This document shows positions 1,344-20,863 of a stretch of 21,466 nucleotides of DNA, in pieces. Under the pieces are notes generated by a model. It searched no databases and was not told where the DNA came from. It saw nothing but the letters and a program-made list of their open reading frames with translations. Both the position numbers and the translations under genes were made by a program. Positions within the stretch are counted from its first letter, which is position 1. Every line of letters starts with the position of its first letter. The DNA is taken from positions 1-21,466 of IMG/VR virus record IMGVR_UViG_3300035698_012192; one strand, 5' to 3'. This stretch comes from a virus.

Positions 1344-1763
1344 CTAAACTAAATGACATACTTCATTGCCAGGCGTTTCTTCAAACACAACACTTGCCAA
1401 CTTCAACCTATGAGTTTCAACAGTACTATCTTCTAGACAATTATTTATTTCATAGACTAAAGACTCTGCTAGAACTTCAGCGGTAGGAGGACGACGAGTA
1501 ACTACAATACGTAATCCCATAGACTTTAAATAATCAATACAAGGGTCGCCATCTTTCAAAATTAATGTATGATCAAAAGAATTAACTATATCTTTCAACC
1601 AACCAAACTCGCCAAAATCTAAAATCATTCCTGTGTCATCATTAATGCCACCTTCAAGTGTAACTATGACTTTTCCACTATGCCCATGGATATTCTTACA
1701 CAAACCTTTATGATCAGGAAGCCTGTGTGCATACTCTACATAATACGTTTTTTGAATTAACAT
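1344..1763 (-). CDS. queD: 6-carboxy-5,6,7,8-tetrahydropterin synthase QueD
   Basis: This 139-residue T-fold enzyme has the size and motifs of QueD/6-pyruvoyl-tetrahydropterin synthase. The zinc triad is H13, H26 and H28 (in I-H-G-H-S), and C22 sits at the catalytic cysteine position. F-D-H-T (63-66) supplies the catalytic Asp/His, P-T-A-E-V-L-A-E (93-100) is the P-T-x-E substrate-binding motif, and V-V-F-E-E-T-P ends the fold with the pterin-anchoring glutamate. QueD converts dihydroneopterin triphosphate to 6-carboxytetrahydropterin, the second step of preQ0/queuosine synthesis. With QueE and the DpdA-like protein in the same window, it most likely feeds 7-deazaguanine modification of phage DNA. 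AAGGAG lies seven bases before the ATG. The gene lies about 17 kb downstream of queE, away from the main modification block. Confidence 0.9.
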   Translation of the reverse strand: MLIQKTYYVEYAHRLPDHKGLCKNIHGHSGKVIVTLEGGINDDTGMILDFGEFGWLKDIVNSFDHTLILKDGDPCIDYLKSMGLRIVVTRRPPTAEVLAESLVYEINNCLEDSTVETHRLKLASVVFEETPGNEVCHLV

Positions 1764-1776
1764 TTGTTATCTCCTT

Positions 1777-2331
1777 CTAAACTTTAACAATTGATCCTAT
1801 ACTTTTTGTGCCACGAAATCTTTCGCCAAACCCCATACCACAACCTACTAAAAACTCAGGTCCACTATGTTTAATTCCCACAATATCCTTATCCGTAAAA
1901 TAACTAGTCCGGTCTTCTGTTACTCTTTCTACCAATGTACAATAATGAATATCTTGGCTACACAATCCTGCTTTAATTAACTCATCATACACAAGTTCCA
2001 TTGTTTTTCCTGTATCAACTATATCATCAACTACCCAAATCTGCCTACCCTCAAGTTCTTTTATAGGCAAATCTAATGGATATGTTATCTCAGCCTCCGT
2101 AGGACTTGTATTTATGTCCTGATAACTTCGTACGCCTATAAAACCAAACCTACTAACATAAGGACCAGTTATAGTAATACGTTTAAGTAGTTCAAATCCT
2201 ACAAACGCTCCGCCTTTAAGTACCATAATCATACAGCATTCATGTTTAGCCAAAGCCATAAACCGCATGCTCATATTCTTAAATGCTCGATCAATGTCTT
2301 CCGTAGCATAAATCTCTTCGAATGATGCCAT
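1777..2331 (-). CDS. Hypoxanthine-type purine phosphoribosyltransferase
   Basis: The 184-residue protein shows the type I phosphoribosyltransferase PRPP loop, V-V-D-D-I-V-D-T-G-K-T (100-110), preceded by L-K-G-G (38-41), as in hypoxanthine/guanine phosphoribosyltransferases. V-G-C-G-M-G-F-G-E-R-F-R-G near the C-terminus matches the HPRT V-G-Y-G-x-D-x-x-x-x-x-R-x element. These enzymes join a free purine to PRPP to make a nucleotide. The ATG follows AAAGGA, and the upstream ATPase gene stops one base before it. Its place beside queD suggests purine salvage or handling of guanine released when the DNA base is exchanged. That link is inference; ordinary nucleotide salvage for replication is equally possible. 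Confidence 0.75.
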   Translation of the reverse strand: MASFEEIYATEDIDRAFKNMSMRFMALAKHECCMIMVLKGGAFVGFELLKRITITGPYVSRFGFIGVRSYQDINTSPTEAEITYPLDLPIKELEGRQIWVVDDIVDTGKTMELVYDELIKAGLCSQDIHYCTLVERVTEDRTSYFTDKDIVGIKHSGPEFLVGCGMGFGERFRGTKSIGSIVKV

Positions 2332-11417: not shown

Positions 11418-13919
11418 TTAAAGTTCTTCCATCTCTAACCAGTTGTTGCCTATTTCCCAAGAAACGGTTAAAGGGACAACCCCTTGCCATTCAAATCGTT
11501 TTGCTGTCATTATCCTAGTAGCTAACATAACTACTTCCTCCAACTCCTCTATCACCACATCGAATAAAATACTATCATGCACCTGATTGATAATAGTTGT
11601 TTTCAACTTCTTCCTTGTAAGTTCCGTATCTATCTTAATTAAAGCATCCAATAAAAGATGAAAAGCCAGCCCCTGCACTGGAGTGTTAAGCAACTGCTCT
11701 AAACTTAGCGGGCCTGAACGACGAAAACCTGACAGGCCTACTACACAACCAGTCGAATTGTACTCATCAATAACACGGTTCTGCCACTCCTTGACTTTTG
11801 CATACTCAGACCAAAACTGATTATGTAATGCTGTAATAAACTTCTCGTTCTTCTTCAATCCCTTAGCTATAGATGTAGGTTGTGCACCGTAAAATGAAGG
11901 GAATACAAACTTATTCTTTGCATAAAACCTCTGCTCTCCAGTTATCTTATCAAACTCTTCCTCATATATACGAGACGCCCAGAGACGATGTGTATCAAAC
12001 TCATCTTGGATCTGCTTAGTCAAAACAGGATCCTTTGAGTACATAGCAATGCCTCTTACTTCCTGTCCGTCAAAATCGCCTTCAACAAGTACTCTCCCTT
12101 CTGAAGGAATAATACATCGTCTTAATTGCTTGAGCAAGTCATCATGCTTCGGAATATTATGAACATTAGGATCACTTGAACTAGAACGGTAAGTCTCTGC
12201 CACATCCAAATGAAAAGAAGAATGTAATTTTCCGTCTGAACAAACAAAATTACCGTAGGTAACAAGCTTCTTAACAAAACTTTCATACTTCTTATAGCTC
12301 TGCACGTCCTCAATAAACTTAATTGCCTTTTTGTTCTTGCCGTCTTCTACAAGAGCTGTCAGTACCTTATCATCAACAGACCGCTGCCCTTTAGTTGTCT
12401 TCCTTTTAGGTGCAAGGCCGAATAAATCAAAAAGTACCTTTGCAAGCTGCGGTCCAGAGTTGACATTAAACTCCTTCTCTTCCTTCTCATTAAATATTTT
12501 TACGATCTCACATTGGCTAATACCTTCTTTACATGCTGAAGCCTTAGCCCTATACTCACTATCAAACTCCTTTAACAAATCAGTGTCAAAGTTTATGCCC
12601 GTCTCTTTCATATTTGCTAAAGTAATAAGTCCATCCTTAAGCAAATTATCAAAAGATCTTAATCCCTTTGTCAACATAGTGTCCTGCTTGTAATGAGACA
12701 TCAATGTGTATCTAGAATCGAGTACGTTGTACACTGCTACTTTTTCCAAAGGTTCGGACTCTAACTTGCTTACTTCAACCATTCCTTTGTAGTCATCTCC
12801 TGTTAAAAGTTTAACTTGGAAGTCTAAATTAGCTGTACCACGTCGGCAGTGTATAACATGATGAGTTGATAGTGTGTCACGAAGTAGATTATGCATAGGT
12901 TGCTTAAGATGAACCCGTCCCCAAAGCTCTTCCATATTAAAATTCTGAACAACTTTTGGAACATTGCCTGCAAGAAATCTCTTAAACATTCCCCAAACAA
13001 AAGCATTCTCCATCTCGTTCCAATTGTTCAGTCCTAAAGGTATGCAATATCCTTTATCTACGTTATTTGCAATTGCTACTGTAAGTATGCGAGCGTCTTT
13101 GTCATAAGGAGATATTGCTGTAGTTTCATAATCAAACGCCGTCGGAATGTTCTGCTCAACTACTTCCCTCAAAAGTTCCCCACAATCTTTTGACTCAGTA
13201 AGTAAATAGCACTCGTTCCTGTCTAACAGTTTAGGCAATGACTTGTCCTTTGTAGATATCATATCACATAGATCATAAGCAAATATATGTTCTTTACTTT
13301 CGTCCCTTAAAATTGCGGCGGGATGATATGTTGCACCTACTCTACAAAAGTATTCCTGATAAGGAAAAACTAAACCGTGTATACTTAACAACTTTGTACT
13401 GGTTAGTTTAAGTGGCTTCATTATGACTGATGAAGGTATGTCACCCAAACATATAATTAACTTAGGTTTTAAGGCAACAATCTCAGAAAATACTCTTAGA
13501 TGACAACTAACAATCTCGTCTTTGAAAGGTTCCCTGTTCTTGGGCAGCATACATTGTATGACGTTTGTTCTATAACAATCCTTATCCAAGTCGATGTTTA
13601 AGTACCCTAGTGTCTTTCTCAGCAGTCTGCCCGAAGGTCCTATAAAAGGTACACCAGATCGATCCTCCTCTCGTCCTGGAGCAATGCCAACTATTAAAAT
13701 CCGTTCCTTACCTTCCCCATAAAATTCCATTTTAGGTGACTGGCAACCTTTATACAATCCGCAAGTTTCACAATCATAAACTTTAGGTTGAGCTTTGGTT
13801 CCTTTGGCTCGTCTGCCTGAACCTTTCCTACTTGTTGCCTTACGAGTACGCTCCCGTTCGACTATATCTTTACGTAGTATCTCGTTGCGGTCTACTAAGA
13901 ATGCTTGTTGGTCTGTCAT
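11418..13919 (-). CDS. Fusion of family 4-type uracil-DNA glycosylase and family A DNA polymerase
   Basis: Residues 48-220 match family 4 (iron-sulfur) uracil-DNA glycosylases: cysteines C50, C53, C123 and C139 for a [4Fe-4S] cluster, G-I-A-P-G-R-E-E-D (78-86) with P-F-I-G-P-S-G-R-L-L, T-N-V-I-Q-C, and the Y-H-P-A-A-I-L-R motif (H199). Next comes a 3'-5' exonuclease domain with F-D-Y-E-T (D263, E265). The remainder is a Pol I-type polymerase with E-G-D-F-D-G-Q-E (motif A), K-N-K-F-V-F-P-S-F-Y-G (motif B) and Q-V-H-D-S (H781, D782) as motif C, where Pol I usually has H-D-E. It would be the replicative polymerase. The first 45 residues are a basic leader. The start overlaps the clamp gene stop (TAATG). 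The glycosylase part could scan the template or hold the primer-template; whether it still excises uracil is unknown. Confidence 0.9.
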   Translation of the reverse strand: MTDQQAFLVDRNEILRKDIVERERTRKATSRKGSGRRAKGTKAQPKVYDCETCGLYKGCQSPKMEFYGEGKERILIVGIAPGREEDRSGVPFIGPSGRLLRKTLGYLNIDLDKDCYRTNVIQCMLPKNREPFKDEIVSCHLRVFSEIVALKPKLIICLGDIPSSVIMKPLKLTSTKLLSIHGLVFPYQEYFCRVGATYHPAAILRDESKEHIFAYDLCDMISTKDKSLPKLLDRNECYLLTESKDCGELLREVVEQNIPTAFDYETTAISPYDKDARILTVAIANNVDKGYCIPLGLNNWNEMENAFVWGMFKRFLAGNVPKVVQNFNMEELWGRVHLKQPMHNLLRDTLSTHHVIHCRRGTANLDFQVKLLTGDDYKGMVEVSKLESEPLEKVAVYNVLDSRYTLMSHYKQDTMLTKGLRSFDNLLKDGLITLANMKETGINFDTDLLKEFDSEYRAKASACKEGISQCEIVKIFNEKEEKEFNVNSGPQLAKVLFDLFGLAPKRKTTKGQRSVDDKVLTALVEDGKNKKAIKFIEDVQSYKKYESFVKKLVTYGNFVCSDGKLHSSFHLDVAETYRSSSSDPNVHNIPKHDDLLKQLRRCIIPSEGRVLVEGDFDGQEVRGIAMYSKDPVLTKQIQDEFDTHRLWASRIYEEEFDKITGEQRFYAKNKFVFPSFYGAQPTSIAKGLKKNEKFITALHNQFWSEYAKVKEWQNRVIDEYNSTGCVVGLSGFRRSGPLSLEQLLNTPVQGLAFHLLLDALIKIDTELTRKKLKTTIINQVHDSILFDVVIEELEEVVMLATRIMTAKRFEWQGVVPLTVSWEIGNNWLEMEEL

Positions 13920-14977: not shown

Positions 14978-16117
14978 CTAAAAGAAACTGTTACTCGAAC
15001 GTAAAAACTTACTATTGTCAACACTTAATTCAGATTTCATTAACTCAGAATAGTAATGAACACACACTTTTGTTCTCTCACATATATCAGTCCCTATAAT
15101 CTCAGGGGTTGTTCCTGATTCTCTAAAAAATCGCTCCACATGCTTCTGACCTTCTTCACTCATTGTATACTTATAATGTACTCCACTTGCTCGCTTAGTC
15201 ACAAGAGACTGATCCGAAACGATACATATAAACGGTTGCTTGGTATAATCAAAACTATCCGTCTTAGAATCATATGCTGGAACAAGAACACGACCATAGG
15301 CTGGAAGTTTAACCCACGTGGTGCTGTCGACCGAATACCACGGGTACCTTGTCATAAGATTAAATGCTGTTGCAGCAAAGCCGTGTATCTTAAACTTCTG
15401 CCCGCTCTCTAAAAGTAATCTAAACACCCTGTCACCAAACGATTGACAATACTGCTTCTTCCTAATATCAGCACCCAATCCACTTATTCCAATATACTCA
15501 TACTTATCCATATACTTCTTTAGCCAGGAAAAGTCCTCGCCAAAATGGAACACTGGGATAGGTTCTAATCCACATGACTCAAGATACTGTTGGTACTCCC
15601 AAGTCTTCTCAGGGTTAAAAATTATGTCCATATTAACATAGCCATAAAGTCTATCCTTATACTTGTGCACAAAGGCTATGTACTTCTCAGTAAACTCTTT
15701 AACCTCTTTGCTATCAGTAAATGAATAGTCGGTAAACTTACTCGCCCCACATTTCAAAGCGCCATCGCGACTAACCTTACCCAGCTTGCCTGTACTACGT
15801 CCTGACACAGCTAATTGTGAGTTAGAGTCTAGGGCATCAAACTCATCTCTACTATACTCAACATAAGCAAAACCGGCATCATCTTCTTTGACGCCCTGCA
15901 GTTTTGTATAAACACTAAGTAAGCTATGTGCACCTGAGTCAAGAAATATCTTTATATCAGGATTATCATCTAGGAGCTTTGTTACCTTAACTGTCTTCCA
16001 ATATGTCTCCAATGTATAGGCACCACAATTTGCAACAAGATCTAAATAATAGGGCGAATCTTTTTTTGCACCACTAGTAAGTAGATTGGCTAAGTAGATC
16101 CTTTGTAATACATCCAA
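14978..16117 (-). CDS. dpdA: DpdA-like DNA guanine transglycosylase (TGT fold)
   Basis: The 379-residue protein resembles phage DpdA, a relative of tRNA-guanine transglycosylase that swaps guanine in DNA for a 7-deazaguanine. Recognisable parts are F-L-D-S-G-A-H-S (around 58-65, the catalytic-aspartate region), V-F-H-F-G-E, Y-I-G-I-S-G-L-G, K-I-H-G-F-A and the very typical Y-P-W-Y-S-V-D-S-T-T-W (258-268). A ~60-residue stretch after D-S-G-A has no obvious counterpart in TGT. QueD and QueE elsewhere in the window make the precursor. I start at TTG 16115-16117, eight bases after AGGGAG; a GTG at 16126 is also in frame but sits only two bases from the ribosome site. The gene overlaps the glycosyltransferase gene by 44 bp, which is long and suggests coupled translation. 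Confidence 0.75.
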   Translation of the reverse strand: MDVLQRIYLANLLTSGAKKDSPYYLDLVANCGAYTLETYWKTVKVTKLLDDNPDIKIFLDSGAHSLLSVYTKLQGVKEDDAGFAYVEYSRDEFDALDSNSQLAVSGRSTGKLGKVSRDGALKCGASKFTDYSFTDSKEVKEFTEKYIAFVHKYKDRLYGYVNMDIIFNPEKTWEYQQYLESCGLEPIPVFHFGEDFSWLKKYMDKYEYIGISGLGADIRKKQYCQSFGDRVFRLLLESGQKFKIHGFAATAFNLMTRYPWYSVDSTTWVKLPAYGRVLVPAYDSKTDSFDYTKQPFICIVSDQSLVTKRASGVHYKYTMSEEGQKHVERFFRESGTTPEIIGTDICERTKVCVHYYSELMKSELSVDNSKFLRSSNSFF

Positions 16118-17084
16118 TTGCTTCACTCCCTTTCATTAGAAGTCGTGCTTTGTTAACCTGCAAACGTTCCCAATATTTTTCGTAGTCATCCATTATCTGC
16201 TGCACAAACCGAACACACCCTGCAAAATCATTATACTGAAAGACGCGGTCATACATCTCTAGATAGCTTAAACGATTAGGTACCACTGGCACACAATCAG
16301 CAAACAATGCTTCCTGCTGAGCTATGCCCCAAGTCTCCTGCAGTGCAAACGAAACTGCTATCTTAGCCTTACTTAAGATGTGATAGTATGCATTCTTATC
16401 TCCCTCCCATAAATCTTTCGTTCTTATAAACTCCCACCCAGAGCCCTTAAACTCTTTAGCCAGCTCGTCGAACATCTCAGGCTGCTTCTCAGGACTTAAC
16501 CTATGAGGGAATACAACTATATTCTCCTTAAGGTAAAGAAATTTATCTTCGGAAGGATAAATAGGCAGCCCAGTTATAACCACCTTATCCCAGTTAACAA
16601 TTCTATTGTTGCATAGTAACTTGCGATGAAAGCCAGTGGCAACATATATTCTATCTACAAAAGACAACCAGCTGTTTTCTAATTGTTCAGCCCAACTCCC
16701 CATACCTTTTTGAGAAAGATAGTCCCACTCATCATAAGTGCCTGCATGAAGTATCCCGCAAATCTTAAACTTAATTCCCAACGCACTCCGCATGTATGCT
16801 AACATCTCTAGGCCTGGAAACCACAGATCGTGAAAGAAAAACACGTCTCCATCCTTAATAACATTATGGTCAAATAACTTACATATTACTCTAAGTTGAT
16901 GGGCCTTAAAATGATTAGTCCCTATCACATCCAAAAACTCGCCGTTGCTAATCGTATCTCTTAACGAATCCCCTAAGATAGTATTATATGCAACATGTTC
17001 AGTGTGCCAGTACTCAGGAAACCAATTATTCCAATCAGCACTATACCGCTCAGGAATACTCTCTATAGGAACATTGAATATCAT
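16074..17084 (-). CDS. GT-B glycosyltransferase (GT4-like)
   Basis: The 336-residue protein has the two-domain layout of GT-B enzymes. The first half contains H-A-G-T-Y-D-E-W-D (113-121). The nucleotide-sugar half begins with V-V-F-P-H-R-L-S-P-E-K-Q-P (190-202) and holds E-T-W-G-I-A-Q-Q-E (250-258), the E-x7-E signature of family 4 retaining transferases. The N-terminus N-V-P-I-E-S-I-P-E-R-Y-S resembles starts I recall from phage glycosyltransferases linked to DNA or base modification. It overlaps the radical SAM gene (ATGA) and runs 44 bp into the DpdA-like gene, so the three are almost certainly co-translated. The acceptor may be the modified DNA base or an intermediate, but a cell-surface or virion target cannot be excluded. 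AAGGA lies ten bases before the ATG. Confidence 0.78.
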   Translation of the reverse strand: MIFNVPIESIPERYSADWNNWFPEYWHTEHVAYNTILGDSLRDTISNGEFLDVIGTNHFKAHQLRVICKLFDHNVIKDGDVFFFHDLWFPGLEMLAYMRSALGIKFKICGILHAGTYDEWDYLSQKGMGSWAEQLENSWLSFVDRIYVATGFHRKLLCNNRIVNWDKVVITGLPIYPSEDKFLYLKENIVVFPHRLSPEKQPEMFDELAKEFKGSGWEFIRTKDLWEGDKNAYYHILSKAKIAVSFALQETWGIAQQEALFADCVPVVPNRLSYLEMYDRVFQYNDFAGCVRFVQQIMDDYEKYWERLQVNKARLLMKGSEAIGCITKDLLSQSTY

Positions 17085-17992
17085 TTTTTGTTCTTCCTTA
17101 TCGAATTAACAAACAGTTCCCAATGTAACAACGTAGGACTTCTCATATAACACTTGGAGCATATTGGTTCGTAATGTCCCATAGCATGTTGCTCACGTAA
17201 CTTCTTGACATTGTCTCCGTTCCAAATATCTTTTAATGAATTCTTGTGTAAATTACCAAGAATAATATCATCGCCAAAGCAAAAGCAGCATGGCACAACG
17301 TTCCCATTCGCTTGTACACTTACACTAAGCCAAGGATTCAAACACGGGGTATGCTTCACTGGGTACACGTCTGCTTCATTAAACAGTGTGAGAAAGCAGT
17401 CAGGTACAGTACGGATCTCGCCATTTACCTTATAACCAAACATTGAACGCACATCAGTAAGCCGCTTTTCGTACCCTGGAAGTTCTACTAATTGAAGATC
17501 CACAACTGTCTTATTCAGATCTAAACTATCAAATAAGAAATTAATATTTCGGCGAAGACGATCAGGATCTCCGTTTCTTCTTATATTACGGTATTCTTCT
17601 TTGTCAAGAGAATCCACACTAACAGTTATGTAGTCTAATAACTGCAGTCCTTCAATCTTCTCCTGTATAAAATGTCCGTTAGTACTTAACCCTAAACATA
17701 GGTCAGGTAGATAATTCCTAACCTTTTCTATCATTTGTGTGAACCCAGGATGAAGAAGTGGCTCCCCTGCCATTTGAAATTCCAAAAAGTAAGATCCGTC
17801 AAAGTCCTTCCTATGCAACATGGTTGTAAGAAGATCGACGTCAAAAAATTGACTGTCGTCCGCTCGCTTATACTTCTTTCGCGGACACATAACACAATCA
17901 AAATTGCAAGCAGACGACAGTTCTATCTGGTATATCTCAGGAAGTGAGACAGTAAAAGGCCCTGGTAAATCTTTTGTCTTTATAGTAGTCAT
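17081..17992 (-). CDS. Radical SAM enzyme with SPASM domain
   Basis: The 303-residue protein has the radical SAM cluster motif C-N-F-D-C-V-M-C (C29, C33, C36), the S-adenosylmethionine-binding A-G-E-P (75-78) and S-T-N-G. A C-terminal SPASM domain carries C217, C235/C236, C238, C278 and C281 for extra iron-sulfur clusters, with the typical G-N-L-H-K-N-S-L-K-D-I-W-N stretch. SPASM members modify peptides, RNA-linked substrates or sugars by radical chemistry; the substrate cannot be read from the sequence. It starts right on the stop of the QueD-like gene (TAATG) and overlaps the glycosyltransferase by 4 bp. I infer a role in further elaboration of the 7-deazaguanine base, or modification of a carrier, together with those neighbours. 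Confidence 0.85.
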   Translation of the reverse strand: MTTIKTKDLPGPFTVSLPEIYQIELSSACNFDCVMCPRKKYKRADDSQFFDVDLLTTMLHRKDFDGSYFLEFQMAGEPLLHPGFTQMIEKVRNYLPDLCLGLSTNGHFIQEKIEGLQLLDYITVSVDSLDKEEYRNIRRNGDPDRLRRNINFLFDSLDLNKTVVDLQLVELPGYEKRLTDVRSMFGYKVNGEIRTVPDCFLTLFNEADVYPVKHTPCLNPWLSVSVQANGNVVPCCFCFGDDIILGNLHKNSLKDIWNGDNVKKLREQHAMGHYEPICSKCYMRSPTLLHWELFVNSIRKNKK

Positions 17993-18318
17993 TATGTAAC
18001 CTTCGCTCCGTTTTCGCCATCTTCAAATACACTTACGGACTTGACTGGAAGATCTAAATGCAAATGTATATCAATAGCAATCATCTCACACGACAAACTT
18101 CTTAAGTGCTTGTTTGCAAAAAACTGATTGATGTAAGAATTGATATGCTTCTTACAGATAAAGAACTCCAAATCCCTATCATCATGATCTATATTAAGTT
18201 CCACCTCAACCCAAAACTCGTGCCGATGCTCATTGCGTAAGAACTTTACTTCCTCAGGAGCTTTGGGCCAACAGTGAAAGGCAACAAACCTTGTCCGTAT
18301 TATGATAGTTTTTTCCAT
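17992..18318 (-). CDS. QueD-fold (T-fold) paralogue lacking the usual catalytic cysteine
   Basis: The 108-residue protein keeps the zinc-binding frame of the 6-pyruvoyl-tetrahydropterin synthase family: F-V-A-F-H (H15), then H-R-H (H31, H33) starting a strand E-F-W-V-E-V-E-L. The F-H-C-W-P-x-A-P-E-E-V-x-F-L-R-N-E-H-R-H-E-F block is one I associate with short QueD-like proteins in phages that carry 7-deazaguanine genes. It differs from the true QueD at 1344-1763: there is no cysteine at the catalytic position before H-x-H (C16 directly follows H15), and no clear P-T-x-E motif. The last strand V-S-V-F-E-D-G replaces the family V-x-V-x-E-T. It probably binds a zinc and a pterin or purine but runs another reaction, or assists a neighbour. 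AAGGT precedes the ATG. Confidence 0.6.
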   Translation of the reverse strand: MEKTIIIRTRFVAFHCWPKAPEEVKFLRNEHRHEFWVEVELNIDHDDRDLEFFICKKHINSYINQFFANKHLRSLSCEMIAIDIHLHLDLPVKSVSVFEDGENGAKVT

Positions 18319-19216: not shown

Positions 19217-20863
19217 TTAATGCTCCTCTGTAGGCGGCCTGTCCCACCAAATAAGTTTATGAATCTGCAAATTAAAATGAATATCGTCCAAATGATCTTC
19301 CAACATCCACTTAACTAGATCTTTAGCAATATTCATCGAGTAGTGTTCTTTTTCATCTTCTCTTATTAAAGCCGGACTAAAAACTATTTGAGCTTCCCAA
19401 TCAGGATGTTTGCCTAGAACTGCTAATGCTTCTGAGTAATCGTCTTTTTCAGTTATAACAAACTTAATTGCATCTAATGAACACAAATCGTCAAACGTCT
19501 CCAAACGCATGCTTTCTTGCTCACCAGACGAATCAAGTTTATAATCAACAACAAACCGCATAGAAGTTGAACTCGCTAACTCAGGCACTGCCTCCCAACA
19601 AAATATATCCCTTGTCCCATTGGTTTCTATAGTTACAAGATAGTCCTCGTATAACATAGCTTTTACTAATCGAATAACTTCAGTACGCTGCAATAAAGGT
19701 TCCCCGCCTGTTATTGTCACCTTCCTGCAATGAATTTGATTCATTATCTCCTCTATTGTCATATCATTAACAGTAGGTTTTGTTTGGGCATACTTCGTGT
19801 CACAATTATGAACCCACATATTATCCACTAAGTATGAGTTATAAGGCGAGCACGTCAAATTATACACCTTCAAAGGAGGGGGTTGTGTGGAAGCACACCT
19901 TTTTAATCTCTCAATATGTTTAACCGCCACTACTTCAAACCCGTTAGCTGCAATAAGTTTTTTTCCATCGGTCCGCTCAGAACCCCAAAAATTATAGCCT
20001 CGCTGATGTACCTTACTATGACAAGGATGACAAATAGTTATAAGATTACCCAAATTATCATTATTAGAATCTTCATCTAAATGATGGACCTCAAGTTTAT
20101 TCCTCTCACTACAAGTTTGGCAAACTGTTAATTCTGCGTTTGAACATCTTTTAGCTAACTTTATAGCGTTTTGGTTAAATCCTTTATAATTAGGATTTTT
20201 CACACCTTGTTTTGTCTCTGAGTATTTCCTACGAACAACCTCACGTTGTTCTGGACTAAGTCTCTCCCAAGGAGAAATATAAGTGCCTGCTTGTATCTTA
20301 GCTCGCATAACTTTTGAAATCTTTTCTCCGACTCGGCTGTAGTTAGTACTTAAAACTTTTTGAATTGCAACCCTAGGGTCTTTCATAGGATTCCGTTCTC
20401 CTCGCTTCATAAAGGATAGTTTGTCCTGAAAAGAAGAATGTAATACCATATCACCAGGGTTTAAATCTTTAGCAAATACAAGTCCTCGAGTAGTAAAAAA
20501 GGGATGTTCCTCTGTTACAAAATACTCTCTACTTTTACTACACTCAATATCTATAGCTATCTTTACACTATACCAAGTGTCAACTTCCCTAGTATGCACC
20601 TCATCCACTTGGGTTTCAACTAACTGCTTCTTATCGTTAAAAGTTAAAAGAACATCTCCTACCTGAACCTCAGGAAGTTTTTTGTTTTTTCCTCGACTAG
20701 TAGTAATTCTGGGAATCCGTCTTCCTGGCTTAACACCAAAACACCATCTACAGCGTAAGTTACATCCTTGGAGTCTAATAAAAGTACACAACTGTCCCGC
20801 TCCCCTAAATCCGTTATACTCGCCGTCAACGGAATCAAATATACTATTCACTGCCAATTTCAT
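19217..20863 (-). CDS. queE: 7-carboxy-7-deazaguanine synthase QueE, interrupted by an intein
   Basis: The 548-residue precursor consists of a 40-residue N-extein, a 313-residue intein and a 195-residue C-extein. Joined, the exteins give a 235-residue QueE with a normal length. V-N-S-I-F-D-S-V-D-G-E is the QueE start, C-N-L-R-C-R-W-C-D-T (C34, C38 and the restored third cysteine) is the radical SAM motif, and T-I-T-G-G-E-P-L-L-Q and T-I-E-T-N-G-T follow. QueE turns 6-carboxytetrahydropterin into 7-carboxy-7-deazaguanine by radical SAM chemistry. The intein sits between W40 and the third cluster cysteine, so the enzyme can bind its cluster properly only after splicing. GGGAG precedes the ATG. 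A strong leftward promoter lies upstream, making this the first gene of the long leftward run. Confidence 0.92.
   Translation of the reverse strand: MKLAVNSIFDSVDGEYNGFRGAGQLCTFIRLQGCNLRCRWCFGVKPGRRIPRITTSRGKNKKLPEVQVGDVLLTFNDKKQLVETQVDEVHTREVDTWYSVKIAIDIECSKSREYFVTEEHPFFTTRGLVFAKDLNPGDMVLHSSFQDKLSFMKRGERNPMKDPRVAIQKVLSTNYSRVGEKISKVMRAKIQAGTYISPWERLSPEQREVVRRKYSETKQGVKNPNYKGFNQNAIKLAKRCSNAELTVCQTCSERNKLEVHHLDEDSNNDNLGNLITICHPCHSKVHQRGYNFWGSERTDGKKLIAANGFEVVAVKHIERLKRCASTQPPPLKVYNLTCSPYNSYLVDNMWVHNCDTKYAQTKPTVNDMTIEEIMNQIHCRKVTITGGEPLLQRTEVIRLVKAMLYEDYLVTIETNGTRDIFCWEAVPELASSTSMRFVVDYKLDSSGEQESMRLETFDDLCSLDAIKFVITEKDDYSEALAVLGKHPDWEAQIVFSPALIREDEKEHYSMNIAKDLVKWMLEDHLDDIHFNLQIHKLIWWDRPPTEEH
19805..20743 (-). 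mobile_element. Class 1-like intein with HNH homing endonuclease in QueE
   Basis: Residues 41-353 of the precursor form the intein. Block A starts with C41 (C-F-G-V-K-P-G-R-R-I-P) and includes V-Q-V-G-D-V-L-L-T-F (67-75). Block B is V-T-E-E-H-P-F-F-T (116-124, with T117 and H120). The end is K-V-Y-N-L-T-C...N-S-Y-L-V-D-N-M-W-V-H-N (block F/G, terminal N353) followed by Cys +1, so all splicing residues are present. In the middle is an HNH nuclease: C248/C251, V-H-H-L-D (259-263), N270-N273 and C278/C281-H282. Ahead of it are N-P-M-K-D-P and N-P-N-Y-K-G segments resembling NUMOD3 DNA-binding motifs. It should splice itself out and could home into intein-free queE alleles. Confidence 0.92.

Follow-up and report, generated by a model that had tools for sequence, protein, structure and literature searches.

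The stretch of viral DNA analysed here (the window) comprises 21,466 nucleotides, positions 1 to 21,466 of the IMG/VR virus record IMGVR_UViG_3300035698_012192. The gene under study, at 17992-18318, shares this contig with several deazaguanine genes:

1344..1763, minus strand: canonical QueD (PF01242, E = 6e-23, and alignment)
1777..2331, minus strand: HGPRT-like phosphoribosyltransferase adjoining QueD, function putative (PF00156; TIGR01203, E = 5e-19)
14978..16126, minus strand: DpdA-type DNA guanine transglycosylase of phrog_887 (E = 2e-40; phage 9g DpdA is among the relatives)
16074..17084, minus strand: GT4-like GT-B glycosyltransferase (Pfam of relatives and AlphaFold2 model)
17081..17992, minus strand: radical SAM/SPASM protein between the T-fold and glycosyltransferase genes (PF04055, PF13186)
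17992..18318, minus strand: T-fold protein of the phrog_17812 family (108 aa, ATG start)
19217..20863, minus strand: QueE (7-carboxy-7-deazaguanine synthase), interrupted by an intein (phrog_2076, E = 1.1e-29; Intein_splicing, HNH)

The HNH-containing intein of QueE appears to interrupt the cysteine motif of the radical SAM site (GCNLRCRW / CDTKY). Phosphoribosyltransferases were also found amid the que genes of Synechococcus phage BUCT-ZZ01 and of record G033. Elsewhere in the window, a single open reading frame at 11418-13919 fuses an N-terminal domain of the uracil-DNA-glycosylase superfamily to a family A DNA polymerase, and 120-572 encodes a 150-aa protein with a Cpn10-like domain (PF00166, E = 6e-8) and zinc-finger-like cysteines.

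A chance open reading frame at 17992-18318 was ruled out by its profile match and its homologues. The profile of phrog_17812, a family of unknown function, covers residues 2-108 of the 108-aa protein, i.e., its full length, with an E-value of 2.7e-20. Homologues with 30-40% identity were found by tblastn in 15 phage records, and 28 viral contigs also carry them; the annotation at every listed phage-record match is 'hypothetical protein'. A scan of genome contigs with one pattern, which is of limited sensitivity, gave no confirmed homologue on bacterial chromosomes.

The relation to QueD is distant in sequence. The Pfam PTPS profile (PF01242) matches the protein below threshold (E = 0.043, 14.2 bits against a cut-off of 22.4), and a profile search with the NCBIfam QueD model gave no match, so that structure was required to support a QueD fold. 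The AlphaFold2 model, built with 24 relatives in the alignment, has a pLDDT of 95.9 and is a T-fold. The closest solved fold is that of E. coli QueD (VIA Z 14.5, rmsd 2.0 Å over 106 residues), followed by P. horikoshii PH0634 (Z 14.2), which was also the best PDB profile match in an independent search (full length, E = 3.7e-4). The proposal of the earlier note that this gene encodes a shorter QueD-fold paralogue was thereby borne out.

The product has the T-fold without being a QueD. A joint alignment was made of 24 family members and 12 phage QueDs of the same pathway. QueD and PTPS (PF01242; E. coli QueD 4NTK, P. horikoshii PH0634 2DJ6) have in common with the family the T-fold, the length, the H-x(n)-H-x-H triad, the S/T-x-E motif and the anchoring glutamate. 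The predicted zinc ligands H15, H31 and H33 are kept in all 24 members, as are Glu78 and the substrate-anchoring Glu99. The catalytic cysteine of QueD (C-x3-H-G-H, 12 of 12 QueDs), by contrast, is replaced by Leu27 in the window protein and by leucine in all 24 aligned members, so the three histidines and the missing cysteine noted earlier are both real. The Asp-His of the catalytic triad, invariant in the 12 QueDs, is not conserved either, and the glycine between the zinc histidines of QueD is arginine in the 24 aligned members, which also add a C-terminal FEDGENGA.

The motif set particular to the family consists of R32, R48, E51, S-C-E and F-E-D-G-E-N-G. The invariant polar residues in the 24-member alignment are H15, H31, H33, E51, S76, C77 (within S-C-E), E78, E99, D100, E102 and N103. 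The member in phage PA5oct, which lies outside the 24, has Phe at the position of Arg32 and deviates in the C-terminal motif too, which suggests that not all of the conserved residues are essential. The three-histidine site would be expected to bind zinc.

The loss of the cysteine and of Asp-His implies that the protein is unable to perform the side-chain chemistry of QueD. A second QueD was considered as a candidate and rejected, as an intact QueD lies alongside: at 1344-1763 every catalytic position (H13, C22, H26, H28, D64/H65 and E129) is present, in agreement with the earlier note, which had called this gene complete and the paralogue dispensable for the same step. A true QueD was found in 32 of the 38 records that carry the T-fold family, which argues that the family is not a substitute for QueD.

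The family belongs to phages with deazaguanine genes and is not found chiefly in phages devoid of them, the distribution that would have told against the earlier note. A clear QueE was present in 32 of the 38 records, with one further marginal match, and T-fold genes adjoin QueE, FolE and DpdA in family loci. A DpdA of the phage 9g type (phrog_887) was found in 13 of the 38, and the transglycosylase-like family phrog_10773 gave strong matches in 10 more. The relatives of phrog_10773 include the group of phage nt-1, which has been named DpdA2 (PMC6884629). The gene therefore usually, not always, travels with DpdA. Faecalibacterium phage Roos (L036 10001-11219) carries the T-fold gene next to a DpdA but neither QueE nor QueD; its precursor may be supplied by the host.

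The most informative fact about the family is the absence of QueC, which the first reading of the sequence missed. QueC was absent from the family carriers except for two marginal cases. The QueC-like match in Xanthomonas X1 is below the cut-off and looks by eye like an NAD-synthase-type protein. In Vibrio phage D479, the match exceeds the Pfam cut-off; it is a QueC-like PP-loop protein, partial and ambiguous. For comparison, 22 control records were picked by QueE and not by the T-fold family. They were drawn from single-QueE scans and phage records, the single-QueE scans being used because the QueE alignment was too diverse for a scan of viral contigs. QueC occurs in 18 of these 22. The T-fold family was detected in G030 and G033 alone, and each of these is one of the four records that lack QueC; weaker profile matches in two mycobacteriophages fall at the position of QueD and were left out of the count.

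After removal of near-duplicates, a clear QueC was found in none of 30 family-positive QueE records versus 18 of 20 family-negative ones (Fisher p ~1e-11), or in 1 of 30 if D479 is counted as QueC (p = 2e-10), both values ignoring phylogenetic relatedness. Several contigs are fragments. The exclusion gave p = 1e-9 in records of at least 40 kb and p = 8e-6 in isolates alone, again with relatedness ignored. PA5oct, which was reached via its glycosyltransferase, provides an independent case, as it has a T-fold family protein and an annotated QueE without QueC.

The earlier note also proposed a dedicated role from the position directly upstream of the radical SAM gene. The deazaguanine part of this proposal is supported by the QueE and QueD counts above; the link to this particular radical SAM gene is not, as no detectable homologue of that protein was found in any other T-fold family locus. 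The conserved neighbour is instead the glycosyltransferase. The glycosyltransferase at 16074-17084 was assigned from PF00534, present in 17 of its 21 relatives, and from an AlphaFold2 model (pLDDT 92.4) whose best PDB matches are retaining GT4 enzymes, e.g., MshA and BshA. It is the commonest companion of the T-fold gene: of 36 distinct loci, 26 have it, in most cases next to the T-fold gene or within two genes of it, compared with 1 of 20 family-negative QueE records (p = 8e-7). However, it was not detected in ten family loci, including the complete genomes of phi13:1, Bakedbeans and Rhizobium RHph_I1_18, and homologues of it co-occur with QueC, without the T-fold family, in the phages PhiXhv-12 and G032. 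Taken together, this indicates that the glycosyltransferase is likely to act downstream and to be separable. In the Xanthomonas phage PhiXhv-12 (L080 4639-7873), a Gat-QueC, a BshB-like deacetylase and the glycosyltransferase homologue are consecutive with no T-fold gene, a row that suggests glycosylation on a QueC-derived base too.

The slot between the T-fold and glycosyltransferase genes is variable. In four loci (L001, L006, L007 and L008), it holds an AprD4/HpnJ-like radical SAM protein unrelated to the radical SAM/SPASM protein of the window; in L013, it holds a PAPS-reductase-like protein; in L020 and L024, a fusion of an adenylyltransferase with a mannose-6-phosphate-isomerase C-terminal domain; and in some loci, nothing. 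A GDP-mannose 4,6-dehydratase follows the glycosyltransferase in L021 and L022. The glycosyltransferase and the occasional sugar-nucleotide genes suggest a glycosylated 7-deazaguanine, presumably in DNA.

T-fold enzymes such as QueD and PTPS grip the 2-amino-4-oxo-pyrimidine edge of their substrate by a glutamate, and CDG has such an edge. CDG is the product of QueE, and QueC is the usual next enzyme (PMC13329287, PMC6884629). Since QueC is absent, the T-fold protein most likely uses CDG, and it very probably replaces QueC at the CDG step. The protein has no apparent ATP site, which makes decarboxylation to 7-deazaguanine the simplest change; that it decarboxylates CDG is about evenly balanced. 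According to the proposed pathway, CDG would be made by FolE, QueD and QueE and then be taken by the T-fold protein rather than by QueC. Glu99 would grip the 2-amino-4-oxo-pyrimidine edge, as the pterin is held in QueD, and the 7-carboxylate would be placed at the His15/His31/His33 zinc site. The most likely reaction would be the decarboxylation of CDG to 7-deazaguanine, which DpdA would insert into DNA. A sugar would probably then be added by the GT4-like glycosyltransferase, here and in most relatives, with the adjacent radical SAM protein perhaps modifying the base or the sugar further. The fold, the lost residues, the mutual exclusion with QueC and the linkage to QueE, QueD, DpdA and the glycosyltransferase come from the computation, whereas zinc binding, CDG as the substrate, decarboxylation and DNA as the target of glycosylation are inferences. 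As a whole, the reading of the family as a divergent T-fold enzyme of QueC-less phage 7-deazaguanine DNA modification, with CDG decarboxylation as the favoured reaction, is marginally better than an even call. Points that weigh against it include the Phe of PA5oct at the Arg32 position, the ambiguous QueC-like protein of D479, the lack of QueE and QueD in Roos and the fragmentary state of several contigs. The wider picture is more tentative: a widespread QueC-less system of glycosylated 7-deazaguanine may exist, in which DpdA inserts what the T-fold protein makes from CDG and a dedicated GT4-like enzyme decorates it, with sugar-nucleotide genes and radical SAM enzymes added in some phages.

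The decarboxylated base would offer the glycosyltransferase no obvious nucleophile but ring C7, so the carboxyl could be kept. The T-fold protein might then rearrange or activate CDG, or the CDG base in DNA, without decarboxylation, enabling the sugar to be attached, e.g., at the carboxylate. The enrichment of the glycosyltransferase in family loci speaks for such a role, as do the GDP-mannose 4,6-dehydratase and HldE-type adenylyltransferase genes of some cassettes. However, the ten loci in which no glycosyltransferase was detected imply that the family works without it, its homologues also occur with QueC where the family is missing, and there is no apparent ATP-binding site for activation of the carboxylate. 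Activation without decarboxylation is thus rather unlikely.

It is less probable again that the protein is a non-catalytic CDG-binding partner of DpdA, which delivers CDG for insertion and so gives dCDG in DNA. A protein that has given up the three catalytic residues of QueD but retained the anchoring glutamate would fit a carrier, a possibility already raised in the earlier note, and DpdA adjoins the T-fold gene in several loci, e.g., Roos, G033 and L005. Against this, the invariant histidine triad and the other polar residues look catalytic and not just ligand-binding, and no carrier is known to be required by other DpdAs or TGTs. A pterin enzyme, i.e., a second QueD/PTPS variant for a carboxytetrahydropterin or biopterin step, is very improbable despite the fold nearest to QueD and PTPS, the weak PTPS profile match and PH0634 as the best PDB profile match, since most family records have a bona fide QueD, the catalytic Cys and Asp-His are absent, and the family tracks the absence of QueC and not that of QueD.

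The favoured enzyme, a CDG decarboxylase, would occupy the same pathway position as QueC (PF06508), directly after QueE. QueC, an ATP-dependent Rossmann-type enzyme, is unrelated in both fold and chemistry, and the two are mutually exclusive in the genomes examined, with the marginal cases given above. The DpdA cassettes of phages 9g, CAjan and nt-1 (PMC6884629) have FolE, QueD, QueE and DpdA in common with those described here. The T-fold cassettes differ from them in lacking QueC and in having the T-fold family instead, usually together with the GT4-like glycosyltransferase.

Cui et al. in 2023 reportedly detected dDG and dCDG in the DNA of phages and are said to have proposed a CDG decarboxylase, 'DpdL'. 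DpdL would fill the same step, i.e., it would act on CDG where QueC is missing. The T-fold family has the occurrence of a DpdL-type enzyme, QueE and DpdA without QueC, with the two DpdA profiles positive in part of the records. Should the family prove to be DpdL, the enzyme would be one already proposed in the literature. No earlier report of the quantified QueC exclusion or of the coupling to a glycosyltransferase was found in the literature available.

These observations give a testable role to a family that is annotated merely as 'hypothetical' in all carrier records listed, and they would account for the many phages whose deazaguanine pathway lacks QueC. A deazaguanine that carries a sugar in DNA would broaden the known anti-restriction chemistry of phages. 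No carrier phage turned up with a published base analysis. The cultivable carriers include Cellulophaga phage phiST, Acidovorax phage ACP17, the PA5oct/Paride jumbo group of Pseudomonas and Synechococcus phage BUCT-ZZ01. The glycosyltransferase is present in ACP17, PA5oct and Paride, whereas phi13:1, which is nearly identical to phiST, has none. Since isolated phages are among the carriers, mass spectrometry could identify the base directly.

The T-fold domain also occurs as part of larger proteins. In Chryseobacterium phage MA9V-3 (L034 9461-10342), it is C-terminal to an endonuclease VII/HNH-like domain, and in Vibrio phage Bakedbeans (L032 9215-10366), it follows about 260 unassigned residues at the C-terminus.
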